Part shown: positions 7,604 through 23,106 of the stretch, piece by piece | Numbering within the stretch: position 1 is the stretch's first letter | How the letters are laid out: each line of letters begins with the position of its first letter | NCBI GenBank assembly: GCA_024709365.1 | Contig: JANJWV010000172.1 | Location: forward strand, 1 to 49,744 | Source: Desulfomicrobium sp. | Lineage (GTDB): Bacteria; Desulfobacterota; Desulfovibrionia; Desulfovibrionales; Desulfomicrobiaceae | DNA: 49,744 bases | Reading direction: 5' to 3' | Notes under the pieces: generated by a model | Database searches by the model: none | Seen by the model: only the letters and a program-made list of their open reading frames with translations | Told to the model about the DNA's origin: nothing | Program-made: the position numbers and the translations under genes

Positions 7604-8608
7604 TCAATCCTGTATGGTTGAAGTGACGACCCGGCCGATGGTCCGCCGCACCCGCACATCCGTCTCCACCCACGGGCGGTCCAGCCAGTTGGAGAACCGG
7701 CTGCCCACGTCCCTGCGGAACTGGTTGGCGACGAGATCGGCGCCGAATTCGACCCGGCCCGGCTGGAAGAAGAGTACGTCCAGGGAGCTGCCCGGCCGGT
7801 ACAGGCTCTTGGGCTGCCCCTTGCGCAGGAAGAGGCCCGGATGCATGGGCTCGGCCGGCTCGTAGCCCTCCCCGGCGTAGGCCTGCACGATCTGCCCGAT
7901 CATCAGGGCCGCCACCTCGACCATGGCCACCAGGCCGCACCGGCTCCCGCCGGCCACGTCCGTGTCGATGACCGTCACGGCCCGGCGGTTGCGGGAGAAC
8001 GGGGTGGCCTCGGAGATGACCGCGGACGGGTTGCAGGAGTGGAACGCGCCCTCGATCTCGTAGAAGTCGCGGACCACGCCGCTGACCGGCACGTGGTTGT
8101 AGTGGTACTTGTCCGGGGTCAGCCGGAACACGGCGAACTCGCCCCCGGCAAAGGCCTCGACCCATTGGCGGCGGCCCAGGAACTCTCCGAAGGAGAAGAA
8201 CTTGTCCTTGATGAAGAGCACCGACCCCTCGCTCAGGGACCCGGCGAACATGCGCGAGTCCGCCGGCGAGACGACGGCCTCCGGGCTTTCGTCCATGGGG
8301 CGCACGTCGGCGTAGCGGATGCGGCGCTCGAAGATGCGGCGCGGGGTGTCGTAGTAGGCGGCCTCCTCCACGCACTCTCCCAGGTCGATGCCGAGCCTGC
8401 GGATGAGGGTCTCGGCCCCCGAAAGCCTGGCGCCCAGAGGCAGGTCGTAGTTGAGAAAGCCCAGCAGGCTGGAGGCGCGTCCCGAAACCACGGCCTTGAA
8501 CACGGCCGGCGCCTGCTCCCGGATGCGGGAGTAAAGATAGCCGACGATCCGGTCGCAGAAGAGCTCCTCGTCGAGGACCCGGCCGTCGCAGACATACTGA
8601 TGCGTCAT
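7604..8608 (-). CDS. Phosphatidylserine decarboxylase-like protein
   Basis: A 334-residue protein. PSD hallmarks are in order: SPADSR with D117 in the position of the catalytic Asp, FRLTPDKYHYNHVPVSG with H172, VIDTDVAGGSRCGLVAMVEV, and RPGSS (271-275) followed by LFFQPGRVEF, equivalent to the LGST self-cleavage site that yields the pyruvoyl group at S274. Known PSDs convert phosphatidylserine to phosphatidylethanolamine at the membrane. The N-terminal about 110 residues are longer than in bacterial core PSD and resemble the larger proenzymes. The start ATG overlaps the stop of the upstream 792-residue gene (ATGA), with GGAAGGAAA as ribosome binding site. The substrate may differ from phosphatidylserine, given the unusual partners. 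Confidence 0.82.
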   Translation of the reverse strand: MTHQYVCDGRVLDEELFCDRIVGYLYSRIREQAPAVFKAVVSGRASSLLGFLNYDLPLGARLSGAETLIRRLGIDLGECVEEAAYYDTPRRIFERRIRYADVRPMDESPEAVVSPADSRMFAGSLSEGSVLFIKDKFFSFGEFLGRRQWVEAFAGGEFAVFRLTPDKYHYNHVPVSGVVRDFYEIEGAFHSCNPSAVISEATPFSRNRRAVTVIDTDVAGGSRCGLVAMVEVAALMIGQIVQAYAGEGYEPAEPMHPGLFLRKGQPKSLYRPGSSLDVLFFQPGRVEFGADLVANQFRRDVGSRFSNWLDRPWVETDVRVRRTIGRVVTSTIQD

Positions 8609-10983: not shown

Positions 10984-11043
10984 ATGCACCGCCTTGTTTG
11001 CCCAGCATTCACCAGACCAATGTGGAGACGGTGCGAAGACGGC

Positions 11044-11061
11044 GTGACCGGAGCGTGACAG
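11044..11061 (-). promoter_or_regulatory. Pho-box-like site facing the PSD-like operon
   Basis: On the minus strand CTGTCAC-GCTC-CGGTCAC matches the PhoB consensus (two CTGTCAY heptamers spaced four bases apart, 11-bp period) at 13 of 14 heptamer positions. It lies about 60 bases upstream of the 792-residue gene. I could not find a good -10 box at the expected distance, so PhoB control is proposed, not shown. Confidence 0.55.
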
Positions 11062-11080
11062 AACGTCCCTGCGCCGCAGG

Positions 11081-11109
11081 CCGTCACCGGGATGTCACCG
11101 ACGCGTCAC
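11081..11109 (+). promoter_or_regulatory. Three-unit Pho-box-like array facing dedA
   Basis: Three heptamers CCGTCAC, ATGTCAC and GCGTCAC are spaced by exactly four bases (11-bp period), each matching CTGTCAC at 5-6 of 7 positions. The array ends 33 bases before the dedA start. No clear -10 box follows. Confidence 0.5.
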
Positions 11110-11142
11110 TGCGGACGGCACTCCGCATGGCAGGTTCGGCCC

Positions 11143-11700
11143 ATGGACATGGAAATCATCGCCCGTTTCGGACCGGCGGCCATCGCGCTGGGGACATTTA
11201 TCGAGGGTGAGACCACGGTGCTCCTGGCCGGGGCGGGTCTGGCCCTGGGGGTCTTCGATTTCTGGACCGTGGTGCTCTCCGCCCTGGCCGGGAGCCTGGC
11301 CGGGGACCAGTTCTTCTTCTGGCTCGGCAGGCTCAAGGGGGCGGCCTGGCTGAACGGCCATCCCCGTTTCGGCGCAGCCGTGGGCAAGGCCACGCGCATG
11401 ATGGTCCGCCACCGCCTGCCGCTGCTCTGCGCCTATCGATTCATCTATGGGCTGCGCGGCGCAATCCCCTTCGCCTTCGGGGTGTCCGGCATCTGCTGGC
11501 GTTTTTTCCTGCTGGCCAACGTGGTCACGGCGGCCCTGTGGTCGCTTCTCGTCACCATGCTGGGCATGCATGCCGGCAGGTTCCTGGCCGATGCGGACAC
11601 GATCGCCCGGCTGCCCCTGTTTGGCGCCGCGGCGGCTGTCGCGTTCGGCCTGGCCGTCGTGGTTCGCAGGCGGAGAAAAAGGGGCGGGGAACCTACCTGA
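11143..11700 (+). CDS. DedA family membrane protein
   Basis: A 185-residue polytopic protein of the DedA/VTT family, some members of which recycle undecaprenyl phosphate or move phosphatidylethanolamine across the membrane. Family motifs are an early Glu (TFIEGETTVLLAG), GSLAGDQFFFWLGR, and the conserved RFIYGLRGAIPFAFGVSG segment with its essential arginines; four to five hydrophobic helices are visible. ATG 11143 is chosen; ATG 11149 is an alternative and the ribosome site is weak. It is divergent from the PSD-like operon across Pho-box-like repeats. Its end overlaps the convergent radical SAM gene by 8 bases. Confidence 0.88.
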   Translation: MDMEIIARFGPAAIALGTFIEGETTVLLAGAGLALGVFDFWTVVLSALAGSLAGDQFFFWLGRLKGAAWLNGHPRFGAAVGKATRMMVRHRLPLLCAYRFIYGLRGAIPFAFGVSGICWRFFLLANVVTAALWSLLVTMLGMHAGRFLADADTIARLPLFGAAAAVAFGLAVVVRRRRKRGGEPT

Positions 11701-12955
11701 AGGACGGGGCGAGCTCGGGTTCGGATGCGGGGCCCGCGAAACGGGCCAGCTTTTCCGGCCTCATGGGCTTGGTGCCGTCGAAGGTGTCGCAGGCCAGATA
11801 GTAGCGCAGGTCCGTCAGCCAGGTGCCGAAGGCGCCCGGCGTCGCGGCGAAGTTCCGCAGCACGGCGAAGGGGTTGCGTAGCGCGGCCCCGAAGGGTCCG
11901 AAGAGCTCGGACGGGTCGCGGAAGCATTCCCAGTCGCAGCGCCGGCACGCGGAGCCGTCTTCGGGCAGGTCGCGCATTTCCCAGAATGGTCCCATGTCGT
12001 CGCCGCTGCGGTAGCCGCAAGGATAGGCGTGGCCGCGGGTCGCATCGACGAAGAAGAAGTCCGTCCCGCCCCGGCACGGGTAGGTCCGCGCCGCGCCGCC
12101 CTCGATCTGACGGATGAGCGCATCGAGCGAGGACAGGGGCGTGAAGAGCCGGATGCGCGGCCGGAAATCGGGCACGACGCTCCGCAGGGCCTGCAGCATG
12201 GTCTTTTTCTCGTCCGCGGTGAAGGTGATGAAAGGATCCGACGAGGTGGCCCGGTAGACGGCGTTCCCCTCATCGCTCATGGGGTAGCAGCAGTTGGCGA
12301 TGGTAAACCCGAGGTCGATGGCGAAGGAGAAGAAGCGAGCGAAGGCCTCGGCAAATCCCTCCCGGAAGGCGTCCGGCTCGAACGCCCCCTGCAGGGCCCC
12401 GATGCGCCCGCCGCAGAGGCGGTTGATGCCGAGGTTGACCGAGGGGTAGAGGCCGCGCTCGTGGAAGACCGGGAGCGCCTTGCCCATGCCCCGCACCACG
12501 CCGGGCAGGCCGCGGTTGGCCTCGTGAATGGCCGGGTCGCAGGAGTCGAGGCTGACCCAGAAGTTGCGGATGCCGCTTTCCAGGAGCTCGTCGGCGATGA
12601 GCGCCATGCGGTCTCGGAAATCCGGGGCCTCGTGGCGCTGGAAGATGAAGCCGTTGGTGCCGGTGCGGATATAGGGGATGCCGAGCCGTTTGGCGCGACG
12701 GATCATGCGGGTCAGGCGCGGGAAGTCGAGGAGCGGCTCCCCGCCGGTGAAGGACACGGCCTGCATGCCCAGGCGCGAGACGGTGTCGAGGATCCTGTCC
12801 ACGACGTCCGGGTCGAGGCTGTGCCTGGCAAAGGCGTGGTCGGCGCTCATGCCGCACTGGACGCAGCGGGCGTTGCAACGCGTGGTGATCTGGATCACGG
12901 CCTGGCCGGGCAGACGTCCCCTGACGAGACGGCGGATGGCACCGAAATGGCTCAT
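11693..12955 (-). CDS. Radical SAM protein with C-terminal cysteine-rich (SPASM-like) region
   Basis: A 420-residue radical SAM enzyme. The [4Fe-4S] triad is C27, C31 and C34 (TRCNARCVQCGM) and the SAM motif is SFTGGEPL (GGEP at 71-74). C-terminal cysteines (TYPCRGG, YPCGYRSGDD, ACRRCDWECF) suggest one or more auxiliary clusters, as in SPASM/twitch maturases that modify peptides or proteins. AGGAGG precedes ATG 12955. It lies 80 bases after the amphi-Trp/HU gene in the same direction and may be the last gene of the kinase/ATP-grasp operon. The substrate is unknown. Confidence 0.88.
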   Translation of the reverse strand: MSHFGAIRRLVRGRLPGQAVIQITTRCNARCVQCGMSADHAFARHSLDPDVVDRILDTVSRLGMQAVSFTGGEPLLDFPRLTRMIRRAKRLGIPYIRTGTNGFIFQRHEAPDFRDRMALIADELLESGIRNFWVSLDSCDPAIHEANRGLPGVVRGMGKALPVFHERGLYPSVNLGINRLCGGRIGALQGAFEPDAFREGFAEAFARFFSFAIDLGFTIANCCYPMSDEGNAVYRATSSDPFITFTADEKKTMLQALRSVVPDFRPRIRLFTPLSSLDALIRQIEGGAARTYPCRGGTDFFFVDATRGHAYPCGYRSGDDMGPFWEMRDLPEDGSACRRCDWECFRDPSELFGPFGAALRNPFAVLRNFAATPGAFGTWLTDLRYYLACDTFDGTKPMRPEKLARFAGPASEPELAPSFR

Positions 12956-13035
12956 GCGTTCCTCCTTGTGCAGTCCCATGGTGCAGGGGCCCCGTTACCG
13001 CCCTGCGACGGACTCGTGACCCGACGGCGTCAGCC

Positions 13036-13692
13036 TCATGAGTTGACAAGAGCACGCATCTCGTCGGCCATGGCGAAGCGGACTCGCCGGCCCGCCGGAA
13101 TCAGGACCGCAGCGCCGGTGCGGGGATTCCTGCCTTGCCGGGCGGAGAAATCCCTGACCTTCAGCACACCCAGGCCAGGCAGGCGCACATCCAGGCCTTC
13201 CGCCAGGGCTTCGCGGACGACGGCGAAAAGGGCCTGCACGGCCGGATCCGTGAGATTCGGCCGCGAACGACATGGCGCGTCTGGGCCTAGCAGGCATGCC
13301 GGGTCCGCGCAGGGCGCAGGCGCATGGCCTTCCGTTGCGCCTTCTTCCGGAACGCCGCCTTGCCCCGCCGCGTCCGTGCCGTCATCCGGCATCAGCTCAT
13401 TTTTTTTTTTTGCCGCGTCTTCCGCCGGGGAATCCGCTTGGGCCACGAGGTGGGTCAGGGGCTGCGTCCTGTTTGGCGCCCAGGAGAGCTTGACTTCGAC
13501 CTTCTCCTTGTCGCTCTTCTGCTTGATTTCGAGCTCCGCTTCGATGGAGTCGGACGGGCGCAGGATGAGCGGACGCTCCTCGCTGTCGAGAATGAGCGAG
13601 CCCTGCTTCAGGCCGGCGAGAATTGTTTCCAGGTACGCGGCCGTCTCGTCCCTGGTCATGATGCTCTTGAGTTTGAGCTTGTCCTTTCCCAT
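13036..13692 (-). CDS. Amphi-Trp domain fused to an HU/IHF-type DNA-binding domain
   Basis: A 218-residue protein of two parts. Residues 1-75 resemble the amphi-Trp domain (KSIMTRDETAAYLETILAGL, LILRPSDSIEAELEIKQK, EVKLSWAP with the diagnostic Trp). A low-complexity linker follows. Residues about 145-218 carry the HU/IHF fold (PAVQALFAVVREALAEG, RLPGLGVLKVRDFSARQGRNP, IPAGRRVRFAMADEMRALVN), with the RxGRNPxTG arm that contacts DNA. The start has GGAGG seven bases upstream. A run of twelve A residues in the coding strand separates the two domains (see the repeat entry). It may link the operon's signalling to DNA, but this is inference. Confidence 0.78.
   Translation of the reverse strand: MGKDKLKLKSIMTRDETAAYLETILAGLKQGSLILDSEERPLILRPSDSIEAELEIKQKSDKEKVEVKLSWAPNRTQPLTHLVAQADSPAEDAAKKKNELMPDDGTDAAGQGGVPEEGATEGHAPAPCADPACLLGPDAPCRSRPNLTDPAVQALFAVVREALAEGLDVRLPGLGVLKVRDFSARQGRNPRTGAAVLIPAGRRVRFAMADEMRALVNS
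13400..13411 (-). repeat. A12 homopolymer inside the amphi-Trp/HU gene
   Basis: Twelve consecutive T on the plus strand are A12 in the mRNA, encoding K-K-K between the two domains. Slippage by one base into the alternative frame meets UGA immediately after the run, giving an amphi-Trp-only product. Confidence 0.9.
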
Positions 13693-13713
13693 ATGATCCT
13701 CCGGGGGTTGTCG

Positions 13714-14910
13714 TCACACCAGGGAAATGAGCGCCTGGCAGAGTAGATGCGGGTCGATGGCTCCGGTTTCCGGGACCGTGAGGGGCGTCCTGATGACCTG
13801 AACACCCAGAGGGGCCAGCTCACGTTCGGGGTTTGCGGCGCCGGGGTATGCGATTGCGGGATCGAGCAGGACGAAGTCCAGCACGTCGCCGATGGCGATG
13901 GTGTCGGGGTCGTCGGCCCGCAGGTGGCGCAGCAGCGTGCGTACCTGGTTTTCCAGGGACATGCCGATGCTTTCGGGATCGTGAAACGTGTTGGGAATGA
14001 ACACCTTGGGGCAATGGGTCCGGCTGACGGCCTTGCCCACGCCCGCAGGCAGCAGCGTGGCGATCAGGGAGCTGTAGAAGCTGCCGACGGGATAGCAGAT
14101 CAGGTCGCAGGCGCCAATGGCCGCGCGGATCTTGTCGCGGATCATGGGCCGCACGGGCGCATTCCCCCTGGCCGGGTCGACGAGGGACAGTTCGGCGATG
14201 GGCTTGGTCAGGGGCGGGGTTTCCTTGCCCGTGATGAGATGCTGGCCGATGAGGTGCCCTCCCCCTTCGAGCTGGGCCCGGAGATGCAGGTTCGAGTTGA
14301 TGAGCAGCCGGACTTCTCCCCGGACCTGGACCAGCTTGGAATAGATGAAGACGATGGGGTCGATGTGCCGCCTGCTGTCCAGGTAGCCTGCCGTCAGAAT
14401 GAGGTTTCCGACGCTCGCCCCGCGCAGGTCGAAATCGCCGCCGGCTGCCTTGGCGAAGATCTGCAGGTGGTGGCGGATGATCTTGCGCATGGGGTCCGAA
14501 ACCTTGGCGATCAGCGGGTGCACGCCGTTCGCCAGGGCATCGAGCTCCGCCCGGAGCTGGTCGGGGCTCGACGTCTTCGGCAGGCGGTGGGCGAAGAGGC
14601 TGTAAATCTCCGGATACCCGTGCAGGCTCCGGTCGGCCAGGGCCATGAGCCGGCTGCGCAGGTCCCCGACGGCCGGCATGTCGAAGTGGCGGCGAAGGGC
14701 GGCCGAACTCCCGCCCGAATCAAAGGGCGTGACCAGATGCACGGAGTTGTGCGAGTATTCCACCAGAGCCTGGCTCGTCTCCCTGAGGGCCGTCCCGCCC
14801 GTGAAGAACAGGATGCGCGGACCGAGGTCCGGACTGCGCCGGGTCCTGACCACGCGGATGGGGTCCGGGATGCGGATGGCTCGGGTGACGCGGATGGGCA
14901 TTCTGCTCAT
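13714..14910 (-). CDS. CofD-like protein of the ATP-grasp/kinase cluster
   Basis: A 398-residue protein of the CofD/YvcK superfamily, whose members bind a nucleotide-type substrate and transfer phospho groups (CofD) or bind UDP-sugars (YvcK). Visible are ILFFTGGTALRETSQAL near residue 35, VTPFDSGGSSAALRRHF near 60, ASVGNLILTAGYL near 165, and DLICYPVGSFYSSLIATLL near 280, all typical. Its ATG overlaps the upstream kinase stop (ATGA). I recall that a family of this type carries the name 'GAK system CofD-like protein'; the reaction is unknown. Confidence 0.8.
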   Translation of the reverse strand: MSRMPIRVTRAIRIPDPIRVVRTRRSPDLGPRILFFTGGTALRETSQALVEYSHNSVHLVTPFDSGGSSAALRRHFDMPAVGDLRSRLMALADRSLHGYPEIYSLFAHRLPKTSSPDQLRAELDALANGVHPLIAKVSDPMRKIIRHHLQIFAKAAGGDFDLRGASVGNLILTAGYLDSRRHIDPIVFIYSKLVQVRGEVRLLINSNLHLRAQLEGGGHLIGQHLITGKETPPLTKPIAELSLVDPARGNAPVRPMIRDKIRAAIGACDLICYPVGSFYSSLIATLLPAGVGKAVSRTHCPKVFIPNTFHDPESIGMSLENQVRTLLRHLRADDPDTIAIGDVLDFVLLDPAIAYPGAANPERELAPLGVQVIRTPLTVPETGAIDPHLLCQALISLV

Positions 14911-15977
14911 GACGTTTCCAGAAGCCGCAGGCAGCCTGCGGCCGCGAAGTCGAAATCGACGCCCCCGCTGATCTCGAACACCCGGCACCCGTCCAGGGCC
15001 CGGGCATAGTCCGAGGCCGTCGGCGCATAGTCCCCGTCGGGCACGAAAAAGAGCCCCGTGTCCTTCATGAAGGCGGCCAGCAGGTCGTGCCGCGCGTGCA
15101 CGTCGATCTCCTCGAAGCGCGTGACCGCGATGTCCCGGCTCCAGTTCAGCAGCACCAGATAGCGCATGGGGCTCTGCAGGATGAAGCGGTCGGTGCCGAA
15201 GAGACGGTCGATGAGGGCGTCGTACTTGTGTTCCAGGTTCCAGAGCTCCTCGGGCGCCATGCGCAGGAATCGTTCCCGGTCCTCGTCGGTGATGATGCCT
15301 GCGAGGTCCGGGTTGTGCAGGGCTGTGCCCGGGTTGATGCGCGGGTGCTTGGCCACGCCGAACATGGCCGGGCAGGGCGCGCCGGGACGTACCATGAGGC
15401 GGTCGTTGCTGACGAAGGTCACGCCCTTGCTGACCAGGTGCAGGGCCAGGGTGGACTTGCCCATGCCCGAGAAGCCGGCCATGGCCATGCCCGTCTCGCA
15501 CAGGGCCACCCCGGCGGCGTGGGCCAGGAGGCAGCCGTCGTTCAGCTTGCGCTCGATGAAGCGGTTGTTGACGAAATTGACGATCTGGTTGGGGTTGGCC
15601 TCGCAGTCGCCCACGGCCAGGTTCCGCCCTCCCCCGAAAATAAAGTGCAGGCCGGTCAGGCGCTTGCGCACGACTCGCCCGCCGGGGACGTCGGCCCACT
15701 CCTCCTTGATCTTGGTCTTGCCGGGGTCGGGCTCCTTGACGAGGAAGGAAAGGCCCAGATCGGGGACGGGTCCCTGCAGGGCGGTCACGGCGATGTCGGC
15801 GGCGCCGGGGGAACAGAGAAACGGCGCGAAGTAGGTCGTCAGCTCACCGGCCAGGGTTTCGGAGTTGGTCTCGACCCGGAATCGGCAGTCGCCCATGGCC
15901 AGGAAGACGCGGTGCGGGGTGTCGGCGCCCGCGGTCAGACGGTCGATGAGGTCCGAACAGTGCACTCTAGCTTCCAC
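14907..15977 (-). CDS. HprK-related kinase (type B)
   Basis: A 356-residue protein related to HPr kinase/phosphorylase. The P-loop GFSGMGKST lies at 168-176, followed by FVSNDRL (188-194), the expected second nucleotide-binding motif, and HprK-like LAHAAGVAL before the P-loop. The N-terminal 110 residues are an uncharacterised beta-rich part. GTG 15977 is chosen because GGAG lies seven bases upstream; it overlaps the ATP-grasp stop by 11 bases. No HPr gene is nearby, so the target is not the usual PTS protein. The amphi-Trp or XXXCH proteins of the operon are possible substrates (inference). Confidence 0.82.
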   Translation of the reverse strand: MEARVHCSDLIDRLTAGADTPHRVFLAMGDCRFRVETNSETLAGELTTYFAPFLCSPGAADIAVTALQGPVPDLGLSFLVKEPDPGKTKIKEEWADVPGGRVVRKRLTGLHFIFGGGRNLAVGDCEANPNQIVNFVNNRFIERKLNDGCLLAHAAGVALCETGMAMAGFSGMGKSTLALHLVSKGVTFVSNDRLMVRPGAPCPAMFGVAKHPRINPGTALHNPDLAGIITDEDRERFLRMAPEELWNLEHKYDALIDRLFGTDRFILQSPMRYLVLLNWSRDIAVTRFEEIDVHARHDLLAAFMKDTGLFFVPDGDYAPTASDYARALDGCRVFEISGGVDFDFAAAGCLRLLETS

Positions 15978-16839
15978 GGATCTTCTCCATGACGTAGTCG
16001 GTGTACATGGCCGCGGCGTCCAGGCCGCAGGCCTCCTGGATGCCACGGAAGCCCCCGAAGGCCGAGACCTCGAAGACCACGGGCCCGGCGGCCGTCTCCA
16101 CTACGTCCACGCAGGTGAAATCGAGATCGAACAGCGATTGGGCCTTCTGCGCGACAGCCAATGCCTCGGGCGAAGGGACGGCGGGCGCGTACCTGCCCCC
16201 CGACTCCGTGGTCGTGTTCCAGGCGCCGGTTCCGCAACGCGCGTAGGTCGTCATGTACTCGCCGCCCAGGAAGACGATACCCAGGTCCTGGCCGGGCAGC
16301 TCGATCTTCTGCTGCAGGTACATGATGGGGTTCTCGGCGTGGAAGGCCGCTACGGCCTCGCGCGCCGCAGGGCCGTCCGCGATGACGGTCATGCCGCGGG
16401 CCTTGGAGGTGAAGAGCGGCTTGAAGACCGCCTCACCGTAGCGGCCCACGGCGGCCAGGGCTTCGTCCACGGACTCGGTGACGGTCGTCGGGGGCATGGG
16501 GATGCCGCCGAGGCGCAGGGTCACGGTGCAGCTCAGCCGGTCCAGGACGCGCATGATGGACAGGGGCGAGGAAAAAATGGGCAGCCCGCGCTCGGACAGG
16601 AAGCGCAGCAGCTCCAGGCGGTCCAGGAGGTCCGGGGAGTAGCGCGCCCCGATCTTCTTGATGATCAGGCCGTCGAGGCCGGCCAGGTCCACGCCCTGGA
16701 AGGTGGCCGTGCCCGTGTCCAGATCCAGGCAGACCTGCTCCATGTCCACCAGCAGGCGGTATCCCGTCCTGGCTGCCACCGTGTCCGCCAGCAGCTCCGA
16801 GGACCATCCCCCGCGCGTGCCGACAACTCCTATTTTCAT
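15967..16839 (-). CDS. ATP-grasp enzyme of the kinase cluster
   Basis: A 290-residue ATP-grasp fold protein resembling the RimK-like branch. The N-terminal Rossmann-like part starts MKIGVVGTRGGWSSELLADT; the ATP-grasp core has AVFKPLFTSKARGMTVI (ATP-binding lysine), QQKIELPGQDLGIVFLGG, and a C-terminal FTCVDVVET..VVFEVSAFGGFRG with metal-binding acidic residues. Such enzymes ligate an amino group to a carboxylate through an acyl phosphate. The start has a weak AGGTG; the gene lies eight bases after the PhoU-kinase fusion. I recall this type as 'GAK system ATP-grasp enzyme'. Confidence 0.82.
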   Translation of the reverse strand: MKIGVVGTRGGWSSELLADTVAARTGYRLLVDMEQVCLDLDTGTATFQGVDLAGLDGLIIKKIGARYSPDLLDRLELLRFLSERGLPIFSSPLSIMRVLDRLSCTVTLRLGGIPMPPTTVTESVDEALAAVGRYGEAVFKPLFTSKARGMTVIADGPAAREAVAAFHAENPIMYLQQKIELPGQDLGIVFLGGEYMTTYARCGTGAWNTTTESGGRYAPAVPSPEALAVAQKAQSLFDLDFTCVDVVETAAGPVVFEVSAFGGFRGIQEACGLDAAAMYTDYVMEKIRGS

Positions 16840-16847
16840 GATCGCAC

Positions 16848-18485
16848 CTAATAGTAGAGTATTTCAAGGGGGAAGGAAAAGCCGGCGAGCTCTTCCGGGG
16901 TCTTCTCCGTGAGCCGTTCCATGAGGAAGAGCCCGCGGTTGTACATGTCGTGGGCAAAGGACCGGTTCAGCTCGAACCGGGTGGAGGTGTACAGGGACCT
17001 GGCCACGCCAAGGCCCAGGCGGATGTCGAAGCCTGGGTCGTCGTGGGCCTGGGCGAAGGACTTGGCGAAGGCGTAGAAACTGGCGATGGTCTGGTGGATG
17101 CGCCCGCGCGACAGGGGGTCGAAGGCGGGCAGCCGGAAGTTGGAGACCAGGAAGACGGAGACGTCCTGCACGTAGTCGGCGTGCTGGGAGCGGTGCAGGT
17201 CGATGAAATAGACCTTCTGGTTCTGGTGGTTGTAGATGACGTTGTTGATGTTGAAGTCGCCATGGATGAAGACCGAGAAGGGGGCGGGATAGCGGGCCTC
17301 GATGTCCATGCAGCCCTTGATCAGCTCCCCGGCCGAGGGGATGGGCAGGGGGCCGATGCCCAGGGGCGGGCGCATGAGCTCCGGGTGGACCTGCAGGATG
17401 GAGGACATGCGGTCCCCGACCTGACGCATCATGTTCGTCGGCAGCTCGAACCTGTTCAGGGTCTGCTCCCAGATGTGCTGCAGGGTCTGCTCGAAGATGA
17501 ACAGCGCGTTCTCGAGGATTTCCTCGTCGGGGTTGAAGATGGCCTCGTCCAGGGTGCATCCGGCCAGGAACTCCGTCAGCAGGGAGGCGTTCTCGCCCTC
17601 CTCCTGGTAGCTGAACACGCGGGGCACCAGGCCCGGGAAAATCTCGTTCCAGCACTCCAGGTTGATTTTCTCCTGCCGGATCTTGCGCAGGTTGCCCTCC
17701 TTGAAGATGGAGTCGCGGGCCTGGGGGGTGTTCTTCTCCTCCACCCGGGCGATGCGGCACCCCGAACGTGAACCCCAGATGCCCTGGAAGTCCACGTCCG
17801 TGACCTCGCCCTGCAGGCCCGACTTGGTCAGGTTGCGCTGCAGGGCCTGGAACTGCTGGATCTTGATGCGCTCGCCGATGATGACGAAGAGCAGGGCCTC
17901 GCCGATGTTCAGCAGGCTGTCGCCGATGCGCTCCAAGTAGCGGATGATGAACAGCGAGGTGATGTGATCCTCCACGTTGCGGCCGATGCGCAGGTGGATC
18001 ATGATCTTGTCGAAGTTGCCCTTGTACATGGCGTCCAGTTCGGCCTCCATGCGGCAGATGGCCAGGGCGCCGGACAGGTTGGCCTTGTGCAGGGTCGGCA
18101 GGATGTCGCTCACGGTCTGGTGGATCTTGAGGAAGCTCTCGCGGTAGTCGAAATTCTCCAGGAAGCGGGGCGTCGAAAGATAGCCCATCTGCTTGGCGAT
18201 GTTCACGCAGTAGTCGCCGATGCGCTCCAGGTTGATGGAGATGACGTGCACCGCGCGCAGGTACTTCATCTGCTCGGGCGAGAGCTTGGTCTGGCTCAGG
18301 GTCGTGAAGCACTTGTTCTCGATGACGTTCTTCAAGTTGTCGATGTAGTCGTCCTTGTTGATGATCTTGTCGTAGGTGCCCGGCGTTGGGGCGAGCAGGA
18401 ACTCGATGGTGGCCTTGATCTGGTTCTGGACTTCCAGGATCAGGAAACGGAAATTCTCGTCCAGGCCTTCGAAGTGTCTGTGCAT
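16848..18485 (-). CDS. PhoU domain fused to an aminoglycoside-phosphotransferase-like kinase
   Basis: A 545-residue fusion. Residues 1-215 are two PhoU three-helix repeats (ERIGDYCVNIAKQ and ERIGDSLLNIGEAL mark each repeat), the fold that senses or signals phosphate status with the Pst transporter and PhoR. Residues about 240-545 are an APH/choline-kinase-like domain with FIHGDFNINNV (about 404-414, catalytic Asp and Asn) and FIDLHRS (about 425-431, magnesium Asp). Such domains phosphorylate small molecules or, rarely, proteins. It is preceded by the amphi-Trp gene and followed by the ATP-grasp gene at 8-base gaps. PhoU fused to this kinase type is unusual. Confidence 0.85.
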   Translation of the reverse strand: MHRHFEGLDENFRFLILEVQNQIKATIEFLLAPTPGTYDKIINKDDYIDNLKNVIENKCFTTLSQTKLSPEQMKYLRAVHVISINLERIGDYCVNIAKQMGYLSTPRFLENFDYRESFLKIHQTVSDILPTLHKANLSGALAICRMEAELDAMYKGNFDKIMIHLRIGRNVEDHITSLFIIRYLERIGDSLLNIGEALLFVIIGERIKIQQFQALQRNLTKSGLQGEVTDVDFQGIWGSRSGCRIARVEEKNTPQARDSIFKEGNLRKIRQEKINLECWNEIFPGLVPRVFSYQEEGENASLLTEFLAGCTLDEAIFNPDEEILENALFIFEQTLQHIWEQTLNRFELPTNMMRQVGDRMSSILQVHPELMRPPLGIGPLPIPSAGELIKGCMDIEARYPAPFSVFIHGDFNINNVIYNHQNQKVYFIDLHRSQHADYVQDVSVFLVSNFRLPAFDPLSRGRIHQTIASFYAFAKSFAQAHDDPGFDIRLGLGVARSLYTSTRFELNRSFAHDMYNRGLFLMERLTEKTPEELAGFSFPLEILYY

Positions 18486-18493
18486 TGGGATTC

Positions 18494-18763
18494 CTAGGAA
18501 GAAATGGAGATGGTTCCCGATTCCGCAGCCTGGTCGCCCCTGTCCTTCCAGCCGACCTTGATGGCCAGCTTGTTCTCCTGGCCCTTCTTCTTCACCGTGA
18601 CCTCGAACTTCACGTAGCCGGCCGGGTGCAGGACGATCTCCGCCCCGTCGGCGGAAAGGACGAGACGTCCCTGGTCAAAGCCGTCCTGCAGGGCCTGCAG
18701 GTATTTCTGGATGGTCCGACAGTCCTGGACGGACTCGAACTCGAACTTTTCGTCTTGAGACAT
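18494..18763 (-). CDS. Amphi-Trp domain protein
   Basis: An 89-residue single-domain protein with the amphi-Trp layout: a helical N-terminus (SVQDCRTIQKYLQALQDGFD), two beta strands with alternating hydrophobics (IVLHPAGYVKFEVTVKKKG), and the closing KVGWKDR with the diagnostic Trp. It resembles residues 1-75 of the amphi-Trp/HU fusion further down the operon. CAAGGAAA lies before ATG 18763. Its role is unknown; size suggests a binding or carrier module rather than an enzyme. Confidence 0.75.
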   Translation of the reverse strand: MSQDEKFEFESVQDCRTIQKYLQALQDGFDQGRLVLSADGAEIVLHPAGYVKFEVTVKKKGQENKLAIKVGWKDRGDQAAESGTISISS

Positions 18764-18781
18764 GGCGTTTCCTTGTGGATT

Positions 18782-19924
18782 TCAGCCCATCAGGCGGTCG
18801 CGGTATTCGCGGATGACGATTTCGCGGCTCATGCCCGAGAGGATGAGGCGCTTGGAGATTTCCAGGTCGTCCCAGGCCGGCTGGTAGCCGATCTCGCGGC
18901 CCGCCTTCTCGGGGTTCTGCTCGGCCGGGGCCTTGACCTTCTCGCCCATGTGCGTGTCGTCGCCCATGAAGACGAGCTTGCGGCGGGCCGACGCCCCCAG
19001 GCAGGAGTTGGCGCGGCCCACGGCGGTGATGAGGAAGTCGGTGTAGCGCTGGGACTGGGGGTTCCAGACCTCGTAGCCGTCCACGTCGTAGTCGGCCAGG
19101 AGGATGGGCCAGAACTGCTCGGGGTGGGGGATGATGACGCCGGCACCAAGGGCCCTGGCCTCCTCGATGACCTCCGAGGTGCGGTAGAAGTAGCGCAGGG
19201 TGAAGTGGCGCTTGACGATGGCCTTGACGGCCGAGAGGTAGGTCTGGATGCGGTCGATGAGCCCGCCGTCGTAGCGGGTGCGCAGGGCGTCGAAGTAGTT
19301 GCGCAGGAGCTTGTTCTTCAGGGCGTCCTCGGGGAGATCGTGGCGGCGCTCCTCGACCATGCGCTGGATCTTGGTCACGTGATGGCGCACGAATTCGACC
19401 AGGTCGAGGTCCGCGCCCGTGGTGCGGGCGGCCTCCTCGACCCTGTCCTCCATGGGCGCGGTGATGGTGTGCATGAAGTCGAAGAGCTGGGAGGCGCGGT
19501 AGGTCCGGGTGTGCCGGAGCATGGCTTTGAGCGTGTGGGCGTTTTCCAGGCGGGAGGTCCTGAAGTGCAGGAGCAGCTGCACCTTCTGGTTGAAGCCGTG
19601 GGAGTAGCAGTCCACCTCCACCCCGCTGAACTCGTCGTCGTAGGCCATGAGCTCGTTGTGCTGGGTGGGGATGATGAGGCTCTCGGACATGTTCGGGAAC
19701 ATGCCCTCCACCCGCCGCCTGACGACCGGCATGGGGACGAACTCGGGGTGCCAGTGCACGGCCATGACGCTGCGCTGGCCCGGCAGGACGAGCTGCGGGC
19801 CGGCCAGATCGGCCAGCGTGGCCTCGCTCAGGTCCGTGCTCGTCACGCTGCGGAAGACCTCCTCGTCCTGCTCCGTGACGGCCGGGTCCCAGACCGCGGG
19901 GTTCATGGGGTCCGTGGTGCGCAT
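18782..19924 (-). CDS. Uncharacterised protein with PHP-like metal-binding motifs
   Basis: A 380-residue protein, first half with AVHWHPEFVPMPVVRRRVEG and LIIPTQHNELMAYDDEFSG, second half with VIIPHPEQFWPILLADYDVD and a later FMGDDTHMGEK. The spaced His/Asp clusters and the IIPHP and GDDTH strings resemble PHP-superfamily phosphoesterases, but the canonical HxHS start is replaced by HWHPE. I would call it PHP-like with low certainty. It lies 18 bases before the amphi-Trp gene and 15 bases after the XXXCH gene. Confidence 0.7.
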   Translation of the reverse strand: MRTTDPMNPAVWDPAVTEQDEEVFRSVTSTDLSEATLADLAGPQLVLPGQRSVMAVHWHPEFVPMPVVRRRVEGMFPNMSESLIIPTQHNELMAYDDEFSGVEVDCYSHGFNQKVQLLLHFRTSRLENAHTLKAMLRHTRTYRASQLFDFMHTITAPMEDRVEEAARTTGADLDLVEFVRHHVTKIQRMVEERRHDLPEDALKNKLLRNYFDALRTRYDGGLIDRIQTYLSAVKAIVKRHFTLRYFYRTSEVIEEARALGAGVIIPHPEQFWPILLADYDVDGYEVWNPQSQRYTDFLITAVGRANSCLGASARRKLVFMGDDTHMGEKVKAPAEQNPEKAGREIGYQPAWDDLEISKRLILSGMSREIVIREYRDRLMG

Positions 19925-19939
19925 CGGTAGTCCCGCCCC

Positions 19940-20473
19940 CTATTTGTACCGCGCATGGCAATTCTTCCTGGCCTCGGCCAGTTCGCCGATGGCCGCGCCG
20001 GCCCCCGCCAGGTCCTCGGCATCCACGGCTTCCCGCAACCGCCGGCAGATGTCCGCGTAGGCCGGGTAGAACTCGTCTCCGTACCCGGGGTAGGCCAGCA
20101 TTTTCTCGGAGTCCGAGAGAAAAACCGAGACGATCTCCCTGGACGGCATGACCCCGGCCGTCACGCTCTCGCGCAGGGCCTTGAAATAGACCTGCATGCG
20201 CTTCTTGAGGGACGAATATTTCTCGCACACGCCGCTCGATCCGCACGACTCCTCTCCCCCGCAGACCTTGGCCCCCTTGCCGGTGAACTTGACCTCCATC
20301 GACTCGGTGGCGTCCAGATCGATCTTGATCTTGAACTTGATCAGTTCGGCCAGGCTGATGCCGTAATGCTCCACCTCGCCGGAGCCGGTTTCCAGGGTGT
20401 CGGCCACCCTGCGCAACAGATCGGCCGCCTCCGCCCGGGAGAGATTCCAGCTGTACTTTCGTTTCGAAGTCAT
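19940..20473 (-). CDS. XXXCH-type protein, first gene of the kinase/ATP-grasp operon
   Basis: A 177-residue protein. The N-terminal 70 residues (KYSWNLSRAEAADLLRRVAD, GISLAELIKFKIKIDLD, MEVKFTGKG) look like a relative of the amphi-Trp domain. A cysteine cluster follows (KVCGGEESCGSSGVCEKY), then a helical region ending in EARKNCHARYK, which holds the CH dipeptide that gives the 'XXXCH' families their name. ATG 20473 has AAAGGAC upstream. A cytochrome-like CXXCH haem site is not present. Function unknown. Confidence 0.75.
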   Translation of the reverse strand: MTSKRKYSWNLSRAEAADLLRRVADTLETGSGEVEHYGISLAELIKFKIKIDLDATESMEVKFTGKGAKVCGGEESCGSSGVCEKYSSLKKRMQVYFKALRESVTAGVMPSREIVSVFLSDSEKMLAYPGYGDEFYPAYADICRRLREAVDAEDLAGAGAAIGELAEARKNCHARYK

Positions 20474-20528
20474 ATTCGTGTCCTTTTTGAAAAGTGGAGG
20501 GAAATGAATATCGTCTGCGTCAACCCCT

Positions 20529-20557
20529 ATTTAAAGTCAATCTCAAAACCGTGTCGT
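20529..20557 (-). promoter_or_regulatory. Weak candidate promoter of the XXXCH-to-CofD operon
   Basis: On the minus strand ACGACA (20557-20552), 17 bases, TTAAAT (20534-20529); each hexamer matches 4 of 6 consensus bases. The predicted start would leave a leader of about 50 bases. Confidence 0.3.
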
Positions 20558-20559
20558 TT

Positions 20560-20577
20560 GTGTCACAACACTGTTAC
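20560..20577 (+). promoter_or_regulatory. Pho-box-like site upstream of the PHP-glycosyltransferase gene
   Basis: GTGTCAC-AACA-CTGTTAC matches paired CTGTCAC heptamers at 12 of 14 positions with the correct 11-bp period. A weaker pair (TCGACAC-GATA-CCGTCAC) lies at 20620-20637 in the same orientation. Both face the PHP-GT4 gene; they also abut the leftward candidate promoter. Confidence 0.45.
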
Positions 20578-20688
20578 AAATTACACAGGCGCAGACATGG
20601 CGAAATTTTCGATGCATTATCGACACGATACCGTCACAGAAAATTCTCGAATCAGAGATATGGGGTGTAAACCATAGCGAGGTAGAAC

Positions 20689-23106
20689 ATGGCCCCCATG
20701 CGCAAAGCGGATCTGCACGTGCATTCGAAGTATTCCAGCCGCCCTTCCCAATGGATCCTCAAGAAACTCGGCTGTCCGGAGAGCTTCACCGAACCGGCCT
20801 TCATCTACGAGAAGGCCCGGGCCGCGGGGATGGATTTCGTGACCATCACCGACCATAACGTCATCGACGGCGCCCTCGAGATCGCCCACCTGCCCGGGGC
20901 CTTCGTCAGCGAGGAAGTGACGGCCCACTTCCCCGAGGACAAGTGCAAGGTGCACGTCCTGGTCTACGGCCTCACCGAGGCCCAGCACCGGGAGATCCAA
21001 CGCATCCGCGAGAACGTCTACGACCTGTGCGGCTATCTGCGCCACGAGCGCCTGCCGCACGCCCTGGCCCACCCGCTCTTCGCCGTGAACGACAAGCTGC
21101 AGGTGGAGCATTTCGAGAAGTGCCTGCTGCTCTTCGACCTCTTCGAGGCCAACGGGTGCCGGGACGCCATGCAGAACCGCGTACTGGAAGGGATTCTGAA
21201 GGACCTGGACAGGGTGACCATGGACATGCTGGCCGACCGGCACGGACTCGCGCCCCTCGGGGAGACTCCCTGGAAAAAAGGCATGACCGGCGGGTCCGAC
21301 GACCACTCCGGCCTCAACATCGCCAGCATGCACACCCTGGCCCGCGGGGACGACGCCGCCGGCTTCCTCCAAGGGGTGCGCGCGGGCGGTGGCCGGCACG
21401 CCGGCACGCCGGCCACGGGTCACGCCCTGGCGCGCAACCTGTACTCCATCGCCTACCAGTACTACCGCAACCGCTCGGGGATGGGGCAGGCCGCGTCCAA
21501 AATGCTGTGCATGCAGTTCGCGGAACGGATGCTGGGCAGCGCCCATGGACGCGAGACCGGCATCCTGTCGAGAATCCACTTGGCCATCGGCAAGCGCAAA
21601 AGCTCGGCCTGGCTGAAACTCTCCGACGCCGACGGCATCAAGGCGCTCCTGCTGAAGGAGGGAACGCGCATCATCGAGGGCGACCCCGGCTTCTCGGCCC
21701 TGGCCAGGGGCGAGGACGGCGCCGACATGGACCGCGAGTGGTTCCGCTTCGTGGGCCGGGCCTCGGACGAGCTGTTCTCGAATTTCCTGAACCGACTCCT
21801 GACCGGCGCCGTGGGCGCGGACATCTTCGACATCTTCAGCACCATCGGCACGGCCGGGTCCCTCTACGCCCTTCTGGCCCCGTACTTCGTGTCCTTCGGA
21901 CTCTTCGCCCGCGAGCGCGGGTTCAGCCGCCGTTGCGCCCGCGCCTTCGGGCAGGACGTCGAAGAGCCCTGGACCATGGCCCATTTCACGGACACCTTCG
22001 AGGACGTCAACGGCGTGTCCTGGACCATCCGCCAGCAGCTGGAACTGGCCCGCGAGAACGGCAAGGGCATGACCGTCATCACCTGCGGACAGGGCCAGGA
22101 CGGCCCGGGCCTCAAGACCTTCGGCCCCGTCGGGACCTTCGCCGCGCCGGAATACCCGGAGCTGTCCGTGGCCTATCCACCCTTTCTGGCCATGCTCGAA
22201 CACTGCCTGGAACTGGACCCGGCCCTCATCCTGGCCGCCACGCCGGGGCCCGTGGGACTTGCGGCCCTGGGCATCAGCCGCATCCTGCAGATCCCCATCC
22301 ACGGCACCTACCACACCGCCTTTCCGCAGTACGTCGGCTCCCTGACCGGTGACGCGGGCCTGGAGGACATGACGCGCAGGTTCATGTCGTGGTTCTACAG
22401 GCAGATGGACACGGTCTACGCCCCGTCCCGCGCCATTGCCCTGGAACTCGAAGCCCTCGGGGTCGCCCCGGGCGCCATCCGGGTCTACCCGCGCGGCGTG
22501 GACACGGCCCGCTTCGACCCGGCCAAGCGCAACGGCTTCTACCGGCCCTGGAACTGTCCGGATGCGCTCAAGCTCCTCTATGTCGGCCGCGTCTCCCGCG
22601 AGAAGGACCTGGACGTGCTGGCCGCGGCCTTCCGGCAGGCGCAGGAACGTCTGGACGGCCACGACGTGCGCCTGGTCATCGTCGGCGACGGTCCCTACAG
22701 GGCGGAAATGGAGCGGGAACTGGCCGGGTTGCCGGCGATCTTCACCGGCATGCTGCACGGCGAGTCCCTGGCCGCGGCTTACGCATCGGCTGACCTCTTC
22801 GTCTTTCCCTCGACCACGGACACCTTCGGCAACGTCGTGCTGGAAGCCCAGGCCTCGGGGCTGCCGGTCATCGTCAGCGACAAGGGCGGCCCCATGGAGA
22901 ACATCGAGGACGGGAACACGGGCGTCGTGGTTCCCGGGCGGGACGTCGACGCCCTGGCCCGGGCCATGGCCGAACTCTGCGCCGACCGCGCCCGGCTGAA
23001 GGCCATGGGCCTGCGCGCACGGGCCTTTGCCGAAATGCGGAGCTTCGACTCCGCCTTCCTGTCCATGTGGGAGATGTACAAAGACGGCGCAGTTTACGCA
23101 GCCTGA
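20689..23106 (+). CDS. PHP phosphoesterase fused to GT4 glycosyltransferase
   Basis: An 805-residue fusion. The PHP domain (1 to about 270) has DLHVHSKYSS (HVH at 10-12), TITDHN (54-57), PHALAHPL near 122 and GGSDDHSG near 205, the metal-binding set of PHP phosphoesterases. A middle part (about 270-430) is unassigned. The GT4 glycosyltransferase (about 430-795) has LLYVGRVSREKDLDVL near 630, VIVGDGP, and ASADLFVFPSTTDTFGNVVLEA near 700 with the EX7E-type acidic pair. ATG 20689 follows GAGG by six bases. A reasonable model is that PHP releases diacylglycerol from a phospholipid and GT4 glycosylates it, giving a phosphorus-free glycolipid. Pho-box-like sites upstream support this, but it is inference. 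Confidence 0.88.
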   Translation: MAPMRKADLHVHSKYSSRPSQWILKKLGCPESFTEPAFIYEKARAAGMDFVTITDHNVIDGALEIAHLPGAFVSEEVTAHFPEDKCKVHVLVYGLTEAQHREIQRIRENVYDLCGYLRHERLPHALAHPLFAVNDKLQVEHFEKCLLLFDLFEANGCRDAMQNRVLEGILKDLDRVTMDMLADRHGLAPLGETPWKKGMTGGSDDHSGLNIASMHTLARGDDAAGFLQGVRAGGGRHAGTPATGHALARNLYSIAYQYYRNRSGMGQAASKMLCMQFAERMLGSAHGRETGILSRIHLAIGKRKSSAWLKLSDADGIKALLLKEGTRIIEGDPGFSALARGEDGADMDREWFRFVGRASDELFSNFLNRLLTGAVGADIFDIFSTIGTAGSLYALLAPYFVSFGLFARERGFSRRCARAFGQDVEEPWTMAHFTDTFEDVNGVSWTIRQQLELARENGKGMTVITCGQGQDGPGLKTFGPVGTFAAPEYPELSVAYPPFLAMLEHCLELDPALILAATPGPVGLAALGISRILQIPIHGTYHTAFPQYVGSLTGDAGLEDMTRRFMSWFYRQMDTVYAPSRAIALELEALGVAPGAIRVYPRGVDTARFDPAKRNGFYRPWNCPDALKLLYVGRVSREKDLDVLAAAFRQAQERLDGHDVRLVIVGDGPYRAEMERELAGLPAIFTGMLHGESLAAAYASADLFVFPSTTDTFGNVVLEAQASGLPVIVSDKGGPMENIEDGNTGVVVPGRDVDALARAMAELCADRARLKAMGLRARAFAEMRSFDSAFLSMWEMYKDGAVYAA

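Follow-up and report, generated by a model that had tools for sequence, protein, structure and literature searches.

A conserved GAK gene cluster in Desulfomicrobium sp. and its probable control by PhoB

Genes and proteins of the locus

The window analysed here, a contig of 49,744 nucleotides from Desulfomicrobium sp., contains nine leftward genes (11693-20473) and a divergent gene for a PHP-GT4 glycosyltransferase (20689-23106), as the first-pass annotation had described from the open reading frames; the short gaps and overlaps it claimed are also present, the successive spacings in the nine-gene run being 56, 21, -4, -11, 8, 8, 18 and 15 bp. All five NCBIfam 'GAK system' families (TIGR04354 to TIGR04358) are clustered here with scores above their curated cut-offs, which bears out the link to this system made in the first-pass annotation, and the locus is a full copy of that system. 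The model titles seen give no function, and for the two most constant members, B and D, no dedicated family model exists. A reading frame of 805 aa at 8641-11058 on the forward strand and its antisense partner at 8605-10989 had no family match and lie outside the module.

Gene A (19940-20473, reverse strand) encodes an amphi-Trp-like N-terminal domain (beta-alpha-beta-beta) joined to an XXXCH domain (TIGR04358, 106.5 bits, cut-off 40), and the latter is, as modelled, a degenerate and cytoplasmic-looking four-helix bundle of the cytochrome c'/b562 type. The AF2 model (pLDDT 90.5) led to cytochrome c' in Foldseek, with a VIA Z of 11.5, although all Foldseek and VIA rows belong to the helical bundle, the amphi-Trp-like domain being unrepresented among them; cytochrome c' was also top-ranked in the PDB profile search, and PF01322 matched 16 of 42 XXXCH members (best 5.8e-6). 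The fold and the C-terminal Cys-His are shared with these cytochromes, His173 being invariant and Cys172 nearly so, whereas the first Cys of the CXXCH heme attachment motif is missing in nearly all XXXCH members, no export signal is obvious, and the domain is fused to an amphi-Trp-like one.

Gene B (18782-19924, reverse strand; 380 aa) had not been recognised as a phosphoesterase in the first-pass annotation and was identified by fold search, which was needed because the PDB sequence-profile search gave a chance match only; the protein has no Pfam or NCBIfam match. Its AF2 model (pLDDT 84, pTM 0.81) returned the PHP-fold structures 3e0f (9e-6), 3o0f and RNase AM in Foldseek, and a VIA Z of 14.9 over 245 aa. 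A PHP relative by fold and not by family sequence, B is identified by the model as a PHP-fold metallophosphoesterase, with a predicted set of metal ligands (HxH, H, E, H, H, DxH) that is invariant; H57, H59, E61, H89, E103, H120, H267, D322, D323 and H325 are the invariant residues across 15 sequences.

Two core proteins belong to the amphi-Trp family (TIGR04354, cut-off 31). Gene C (18494-18763, reverse strand; 75.8 bits) encodes an 89-aa protein, w1, in which Ser11 (73 of 73 aligned residues) and Trp72 (75 of 75) do not vary. Gene H (w2; 13036-13692, reverse strand; 63.1 bits) carries an HU/IHF-like C-terminus (PF00216, 2.8e-17) that the first-pass annotation did not mention, read in frame with the amphi-Trp domain across a run of 12 A at 13400-13411. 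An alignment of four species places A10 followed by TGA at the equivalent point in relatives of H, and the conserved A10 run suggests that slippage yields an amphi-Trp–HU fusion.

Gene D (16848-18485, reverse strand) fuses a PhoU domain (PF01895, 1.4e-25; PDB profile match to PhoU, 4e-18) to an APH-like kinase domain (9.9e-8) with the motifs HGDFNxNN and iDLxRS; catalytic residues are conserved in D as they are in B and F. Gene E (15967-16839, reverse strand; TIGR04356, 456.9 bits, cut-off 300) is an ATP-grasp ligase of the RimK/MptN/LysX type, its PDB profile matches including RimK (4e-21) and the LysX structures 1uc8 and 3vpb. Against the RimK family model it reaches 97.3 bits, below the cut-off of 143.4, and the metal-binding Asn of EVN is invariantly replaced by Ser (EVSAFGGFRG). 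Gene F (14907-15977, reverse strand) is an HprK-related kinase B (HprK_rel_B; TIGR04355, 534.6 bits, cut-off 200) that conserves the Walker A motif and the Asp region following it (P-loop GFSGMGKST, SNDR); its PDB match to HprK (2.4e-4) covers only some 50 residues surrounding the P-loop, and it scores 27.3 bits against the hpr-ser equivalog cut-off of 240.

Gene G (13714-14910, reverse strand; motif DSGGSSAxLR...MPAxGDxRxRL) had been labelled CofD-like, a label that stands insofar as it matches CofD_rel_GAK (TIGR04357, 524.6 bits, cut-off 340) and belongs to the PF01933 superfamily (110 bits) that it shares with F420 biosynthesis. Its nearest solved relatives are, however, of the UPF0052/YvcK type (PDB profile matches 2ppv at 4e-31, 2o2z and 2hzb), and neither the PDB matches nor the NCBIfam models listed include an F420 CofD, a 2-phospholactate transferase. 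The score of 99.1 bits against YvcK (TIGR01826) is below the cut-off of 196, so that YvcK is the nearest relative and not an equivalog; on profile comparison G is closest to YvcK/GlmR, regulators that bind UDP-sugars (PMC5482804). Because the profile search returned YvcK structures, a phospholactate or F420-like cofactor reading was downgraded. An ATP-grasp enzyme of glutamate-ligase-like kind, here E, is a further feature in common with F420 biosynthesis.

The conserved core and its neighbours

Of the ten genes, eight make up a core whose members keep the same order and strand throughout Desulfobacterota, and also in some metagenome-assembled genomes assigned to other phyla; the ten-gene set proposed earlier thus holds for these eight, while neighbourhood comparison places the radical-SAM and PHP-GT4 genes outside. 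The gene order is repeated in dozens of genomes, far above chance, the internal order is constant, and in 56 loci no core gene lies on the opposite strand. Co-occurrence is strong (B/D p=7e-25, D/F p=7e-26; range p=1e-13 to 1e-26), and the distances co-vary (B versus D r=0.78, against a null maximum of 0.13). The conserved co-occurrence and order anticipated by the first-pass annotation are therefore borne out, and the scattering of members set beforehand as evidence against it was not observed.

Within the core, the minimal unit is made up of phosphoesterase B, the amphi-Trp protein and PhoU-kinase D, w1 being flanked by B and D in almost every locus. Reduced units without F exist, with no E in those of their loci that were read, and in one family the system is jointly reduced to B-w-D. 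The cluster is present in named isolates, for example Desulfatibacillum alkenivorans (L122) and Desulfovibrio sp. A2 (L119). No transporter or substrate-supplying gene recurs within the core in the neighbourhood comparison.

The PHP-GT4 gene (J; 20689-23106, forward strand), assigned by profile matches, is an optional recurrent neighbour: in several arrangements, it accompanies the core at 8 of 80 named loci and also at L044. The gene for a radical-SAM protein (I; 11693-12979, reverse strand), likewise assigned by profile matches, has a better start with a Shine-Dalgarno sequence at 12955 and is a genus-level accessory: together with DedA, it adjoins the core only in Desulfomicrobium loci, for which reason a RiPP-like reading with a radical-SAM maturase was dropped. 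Shikimate-pathway (aroK/aroC-like) neighbours are conserved in 10-12 loci counted by eye, apparently within one clade.

Connection with phosphate

PhoB boxes were defined as direct repeats of YGTNAC with an 11-bp period, a consensus taken from PMC3333781. A perfect box, TGTAAC-N5-TGTGAC (20562-20578, reverse strand), stands in the intergenic region between the divergent genes, some 90 bp upstream of gene A, and is accompanied by a third repeat (9/10; 20551-20567), and a PhoB-box-like site (9/10; 20621-20637, forward strand) precedes the PHP-GT4 start codon by 51 bp. The whole window holds five perfect boxes versus 0.16 expected. At operon starts, perfect boxes were found in 14 of 93 loci versus 0 expected, and boxes scoring 9/10 or better in 28 of 93 versus 2.3, boxes being detectable in a minority of loci.

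Gene linkage points in the same direction. Genes of pst occur near the core in 10 of 80 loci, and two of them (L086 and L088) read pstSCAB-phoU-A-B-w-D-E-F-G on a single strand. Solo copies of G are found in the arrangement pstSCAB-phoU-G-mgtE (L040), next to Pit and DUF47-like genes (seven genomes) and next to pta-ackA (L041). Together, boxes, linkage and solo-G neighbourhoods uphold the proposed tie to phosphate limitation; PhoB is the probable regulator of the GAK operon, and the cluster appears to be switched on at phosphate exhaustion. On the other side, the passages of PMC3333781 consulted do not name the GAK cluster as a PhoB target in D. vulgaris, and no GAK gene was recognisable by name in the fitness data for D. 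alaskensis G20 under phosphate limitation (PMC5193443).

Possible function and significance

We tentatively favor the reading that GAK is a PhoB-controlled post-translational switch for phosphate starvation built around a small amphi-Trp protein, cell behaviour being probably controlled via the tagging of one small GAK protein. In its well supported first step, low phosphate would turn the operon on through PhoR/PhoB. PhoU-kinase D would couple phosphate status to kinase activity, with PHP phosphoesterase B as its reversing partner, and in the full system F may phosphorylate Ser11 of the amphi-Trp protein, as HprK phosphorylates Ser46 of HPr or Crh. One comparative test bears on this third step: in family f83, HprK_B is found in none of 37 genomes and w1 position 11 is F, L or A in all 20 genomes seen, while a Ser/Thr is kept two residues further on; the loss of Ser11 counts as one event, since f83 is a single clade. 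Ser11 is a candidate phosphoacceptor; the single event, the Ser/Thr kept in f83 and the position of Ser11 as a helix N-cap count against this. RimK-type ligase E may add amino acids to a protein of the module and G may sense a nucleotide sugar, so that the output would be tied to envelope-sugar or glycolipid supply, which would explain the recurrent PHP-GT4 neighbour; the XXXCH bundle may contribute heme or redox input. It is possible, if doubtful, that all these parts make up a new phosphate-status switch in which the two kinases and the phosphoesterase set amphi-Trp phosphorylation, the YvcK/GlmR-like sensor and the ligase provide further inputs, and in Desulfomicrobium the slippage-made amphi-Trp–HU fusion carries the signal to DNA.

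A close parallel is the HprK–HPr/Crh–YvcK (GlmR) system of Firmicutes, with a kinase and a YvcK-like protein from the same superfamilies and, in HPr, a small alpha/beta protein whose Ser46 is a helix N-cap, as the invariant Ser of amphi-Trp is at its first helix. However, nothing marks amphi-Trp as an HPr homologue, F is far below the HPr kinase cut-off, and GAK adds the PhoU-kinase, the RimK-type ligase, the PHP phosphoesterase and PhoB control. With Pst-PhoU-PhoRB it has in common the PhoU domain, the PhoB boxes and the pst-phoU linkage, but differs in that its PhoU domain is part of a kinase protein, encoded in a multi-enzyme operon of its own.

Against a switch it can be argued that small molecules are often the substrates of APH-like kinases and ATP-grasp enzymes. 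D, E and G come from superfamilies that frequently modify such molecules, and these three might instead build a phosphorylated one (a cofactor, a signal or a phosphorus store), for which B would be the phosphatase and the amphi-Trp proteins the binders. The resemblance of E to MptN (131.8 bits) and of B to nucleotide-type PHP phosphoesterases such as 2yb1 would fit such a pathway, and a phosphorus store would account for the phosphate link. Glucose polydiphosphate in the granules of D. gigas is an example of such a store; a literature search on that compound returned nothing useful. We nevertheless consider biosynthesis unlikely, given that G is nearest to regulatory YvcK proteins and not to the F420 enzyme, that in minimal B-w-D the kinase and the phosphatase still have a small protein between them, and that the core lacks a recurrent transporter or substrate-supplying gene. 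Quite improbable is the carrier scheme raised in the first-pass annotation, in which an amphi-Trp or XXXCH protein would act like LysW, its C-terminus being loaded with an amino acid by the ligase while the kinases act on the bound intermediate: E is of the LysX family and the operon has several small amphi-Trp proteins, but their C-termini are not acidic and differ in both length and final residue, unlike the C-terminal Glu of LysW, conservation is concentrated at Ser11, Asp14 and Trp72, the metal motif of E is altered, and the units without F had no E in the loci read. A mere neighbourhood of PhoB co-regulated genes with separate processes, to which the coming and going of PHP-GT4, pst and phoU and the solo G genes would be congenial, is very improbable in view of the strict order, overlaps, co-occurrence, co-varying distances and co-reduction to B-w-D.

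Our literature search found no paper on the 'GAK system' or on 'amphi-Trp'. Families that NCBIfam names without a stated function now form one defined module, with a core of eight genes, a minimal unit of three, PhoB as probable regulator, revised identities and a candidate phosphorylation site, and, since named isolates carry the cluster, it is directly testable. If the preferred switch is true, sulfate reducers, which matter in marine sediments, souring and the gut, would use a phosphate-limitation signalling layer apart from PhoR/PhoB/Pst, one that connects phosphate status with nucleotide-sugar supply and glycolipids.

Conserved core and local additions

The nine leftward genes extend from 20473 to 11693 on a single contig of a 3.65-Mb draft genome, with successive gaps of 15, 18, 8, 8, -11, -4, 21 and 56 bp, and encode, in order of transcription, an XXXCH protein (A), a 380-aa protein without a family (B), an amphi-Trp protein (C), a PhoU-kinase (D), an ATP-grasp protein (E), the HprK-related kinase B (F), a CofD-like protein (G), an amphi-Trp protein with an HU/IHF-like domain (H) and a radical SAM protein (I); the divergent PHP-GT4 gene starts at 20689. 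This layout is as described in the first-pass annotation, and its assignment to the "GAK system" was borne out by five GAK families exceeding the curated NCBIfam cut-offs. A scan of 84,980 species provided 80 named loci, among which the gene order A-B-w-D-E-F-G-w (w, an amphi-Trp gene) recurs. Where the downstream sequence suffices (56 loci), all 56 contain w, 55 contain D, 54 E, 50 F and 41 G, and none has a core gene on the opposite strand. Since the radical SAM gene adjoins the core in Desulfomicrobium loci only, and PHP-GT4 lies close to it, in several arrangements, at 8 of these 80 loci and one further locus (L044), the ten-gene cluster proposed earlier is an eight-gene conserved core with two local additions.

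Most loci belong to Desulfobacterota, and a few are from metagenome-assembled genomes labelled Zixibacteria, Phycisphaerae, Nitrospinota or Atribacteria. Of 297 Desulfobacterota genomes, 21 have B, 22 have D, 20 have F and 24 have G; 19 carry both B and D (p=7e-25) and 19 both D and F (p=7e-26), p-values that are indicative only because related genomes are among the samples. Distances for B correlate strongly with those for its partners, at r 0.67-0.78 against a null maximum of 0.16. The closest copies of gene B are those of Desulfomicrobium loci L071 and L073 (83-84% identity) and a partial one in L072 (96%). Elsewhere in the window's genome (G000), there are a fourth amphi-Trp domain gene (L069, C100:3861-4070) and a second CofD_rel_GAK, 70% identical (C175:2484-3584; L037, 2475-3707), which is not within a GAK cluster and adjoins an apparent HD/HAD-type hydrolase. 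In one GAK cluster (L061, G046:C113), apparently decaying or poorly assembled, B, D and G are interrupted by in-frame stops.

Protein identities and the A-run of gene H

Gene B had no match in Pfam or NCBIfam. Its AlphaFold2 model (pLDDT 84, pTM 0.81), however, matched the PHP phosphoesterases 3e0f/3o0f in Foldseek (9e-6) and in VIA (Z 14.9 across 245 residues), followed in VIA by RNase AM, 2yb1 and Pol III PHP domains, with unrelated chains at Z <5. The candidate metal ligands H57, H59, E61, H89, E103, H120, H267, D322, D323 and H325 are all invariant; the model is weak at 269-291, a stretch containing the conserved EQFWPILL. By its modelled fold, B is thus a PHP phosphoesterase relative without a sequence family. 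For the XXXCH domain of A, 16 of the 42 members hit the Pfam cytochrome c' model, the best at 5.8e-6, and a profile search of the PDB also found cytochrome c' (0.002). The domain lacks the first heme Cys, and a signal peptide was not apparent in A. Cytochrome c' was also the top Foldseek match (E 0.003) of the modelled four-helix bundle (pLDDT 90.5), but the VIA Z of 11-12 is ordinary for helical bundles, and therefore the argument rests on the sequence matches.

D combines a PhoU match (4e-18) with an APH-type catalytic loop, and E is of the RimK type (4e-21, PDB profile search), with an invariant EVS instead of the usual EVN. F is related to HprK via a 50-residue stretch around the P-loop. 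The solved structures nearest to G are YvcK/UPF0052 (4e-31); YvcK binds UDP-sugars (PMC5482804), and GlmR/YvcK has been proposed to act as a carbon-partitioning checkpoint (PMC6171935).

The amphi-Trp frame of H terminates in L071 (16529), L072 (6352) and L073 (16518) at exactly A10 followed by TGA, in a block, GC-AAAAAAAAAA-TGAGC, that is invariant amid poorly conserved sequence, and Lys codons elsewhere in the core genes are AAG rather than AAA by 79:8. The HU-like frame is open across the run in L071 and L073, being reached by the loss of one A or the gain of two, and is uncertain in L072 because of Ns downstream; in the window, A12 (13400-13411, minus strand) joins the two frames. Judged from these sequences, the run looks like a site of programmed transcriptional slippage yielding short and long products. 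A homopolymer assembly error could possibly account for the A12 of the window, but would leave the conserved A10 of the relatives in place.

The link to phosphate

The PhoB site of D. vulgaris is described as a direct repeat of (c/t)GTnAC (PMC3333781). The 360 bp at the operon starts of 93 loci, a few of which share a genome, were scanned for YGTNAC-N5-YGTNAC. Perfect sites numbered 14, with 0 in 40 resampled sets, and sites of at least 9/10 numbered 28, with 2.3 expected by resampling; perfect-site density over the 80 loci and the window was 0.031 per kb. The window, which has five perfect matches overall (0.16 expected), carries one between A and PHP-GT4 (20562-20578) and a 9/10 site in the same intergenic region (20621-20637). 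In addition, 10 of the 80 loci have pst genes no more than about 10 kb away, and in two (L086, L088) pstS-C-A-B-phoU leads directly into the core on one strand. Solo G genes, whose neighbours were named by reading translations, occur in the run pstSCAB-phoU-G-mgtE (L040), beside pta-ackA (L041) and, in seven genomes of one genus lacking HprK_B, B and D (L054-L060), near an apparent Pit-type transporter and a DUF47/PhoU-like gene. PhoB-type sites, pst linkage and solo-G neighbourhoods are three independent lines of genomic evidence that back the tie to phosphate limitation suggested in the first pass.

Genes for pta-ackA or ackA stand beside GAK parts in separate lineages (L041, L043, L152), a possible sign of an acetyl-phosphate link. 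Three perfect PhoB-pattern matches, two overlapping with 11-bp spacing, lie at 11043-11109 (+), 5' of and overlapping the start of a DedA/VTT gene (11092-11700) with weak UptA similarity, and suggest that this gene may also belong to the phosphate regulon. Between H and I, three imperfect 11-bp PhoB-like repeats (12993-13020, +) are oriented against transcription.

A putative protein-modification switch

The alignment of amphi-Trp C has Ser11 at all 73 residues aligned there (73/73), Asp14 at 74/75 and Trp72 at 75/75; H shows no comparable conservation at these positions. A family of 37 genomes (f83) has the unit reduced to B-w-D, with B in 33, D in 31 and HprK_B in none, and in each of the 20 genomes where w was read, its position 11 is occupied by F, L or A. 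This joint absence fits Ser11 as the target of HprK_B, which is a prediction and not proof because it comes from one clade whose w keeps a Ser/Thr two residues on.

From the clustering, the PhoB-type sites and the conserved catalytic residues, we favour GAK as a PhoB-induced protein-modification switch, the main rival being a small-molecule pathway. In the proposed switch, D would sense phosphate through its PhoU domain, F, and perhaps D too, would phosphorylate C, B would undo this, E would modify some protein of the module and G would read a nucleotide sugar. Firmicutes possess an HprK-HPr/Crh-YvcK set, and because GAK likewise brings together a kinase resembling HprK, a protein resembling YvcK and a small protein that bears a Ser, it may by analogy function like that set, though it is not a member. 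The GAK system is named yet uncharacterised, and the cluster described here is a new member of it, to which this work adds the core component set, regulatory evidence, corrected protein identities and a testable site.
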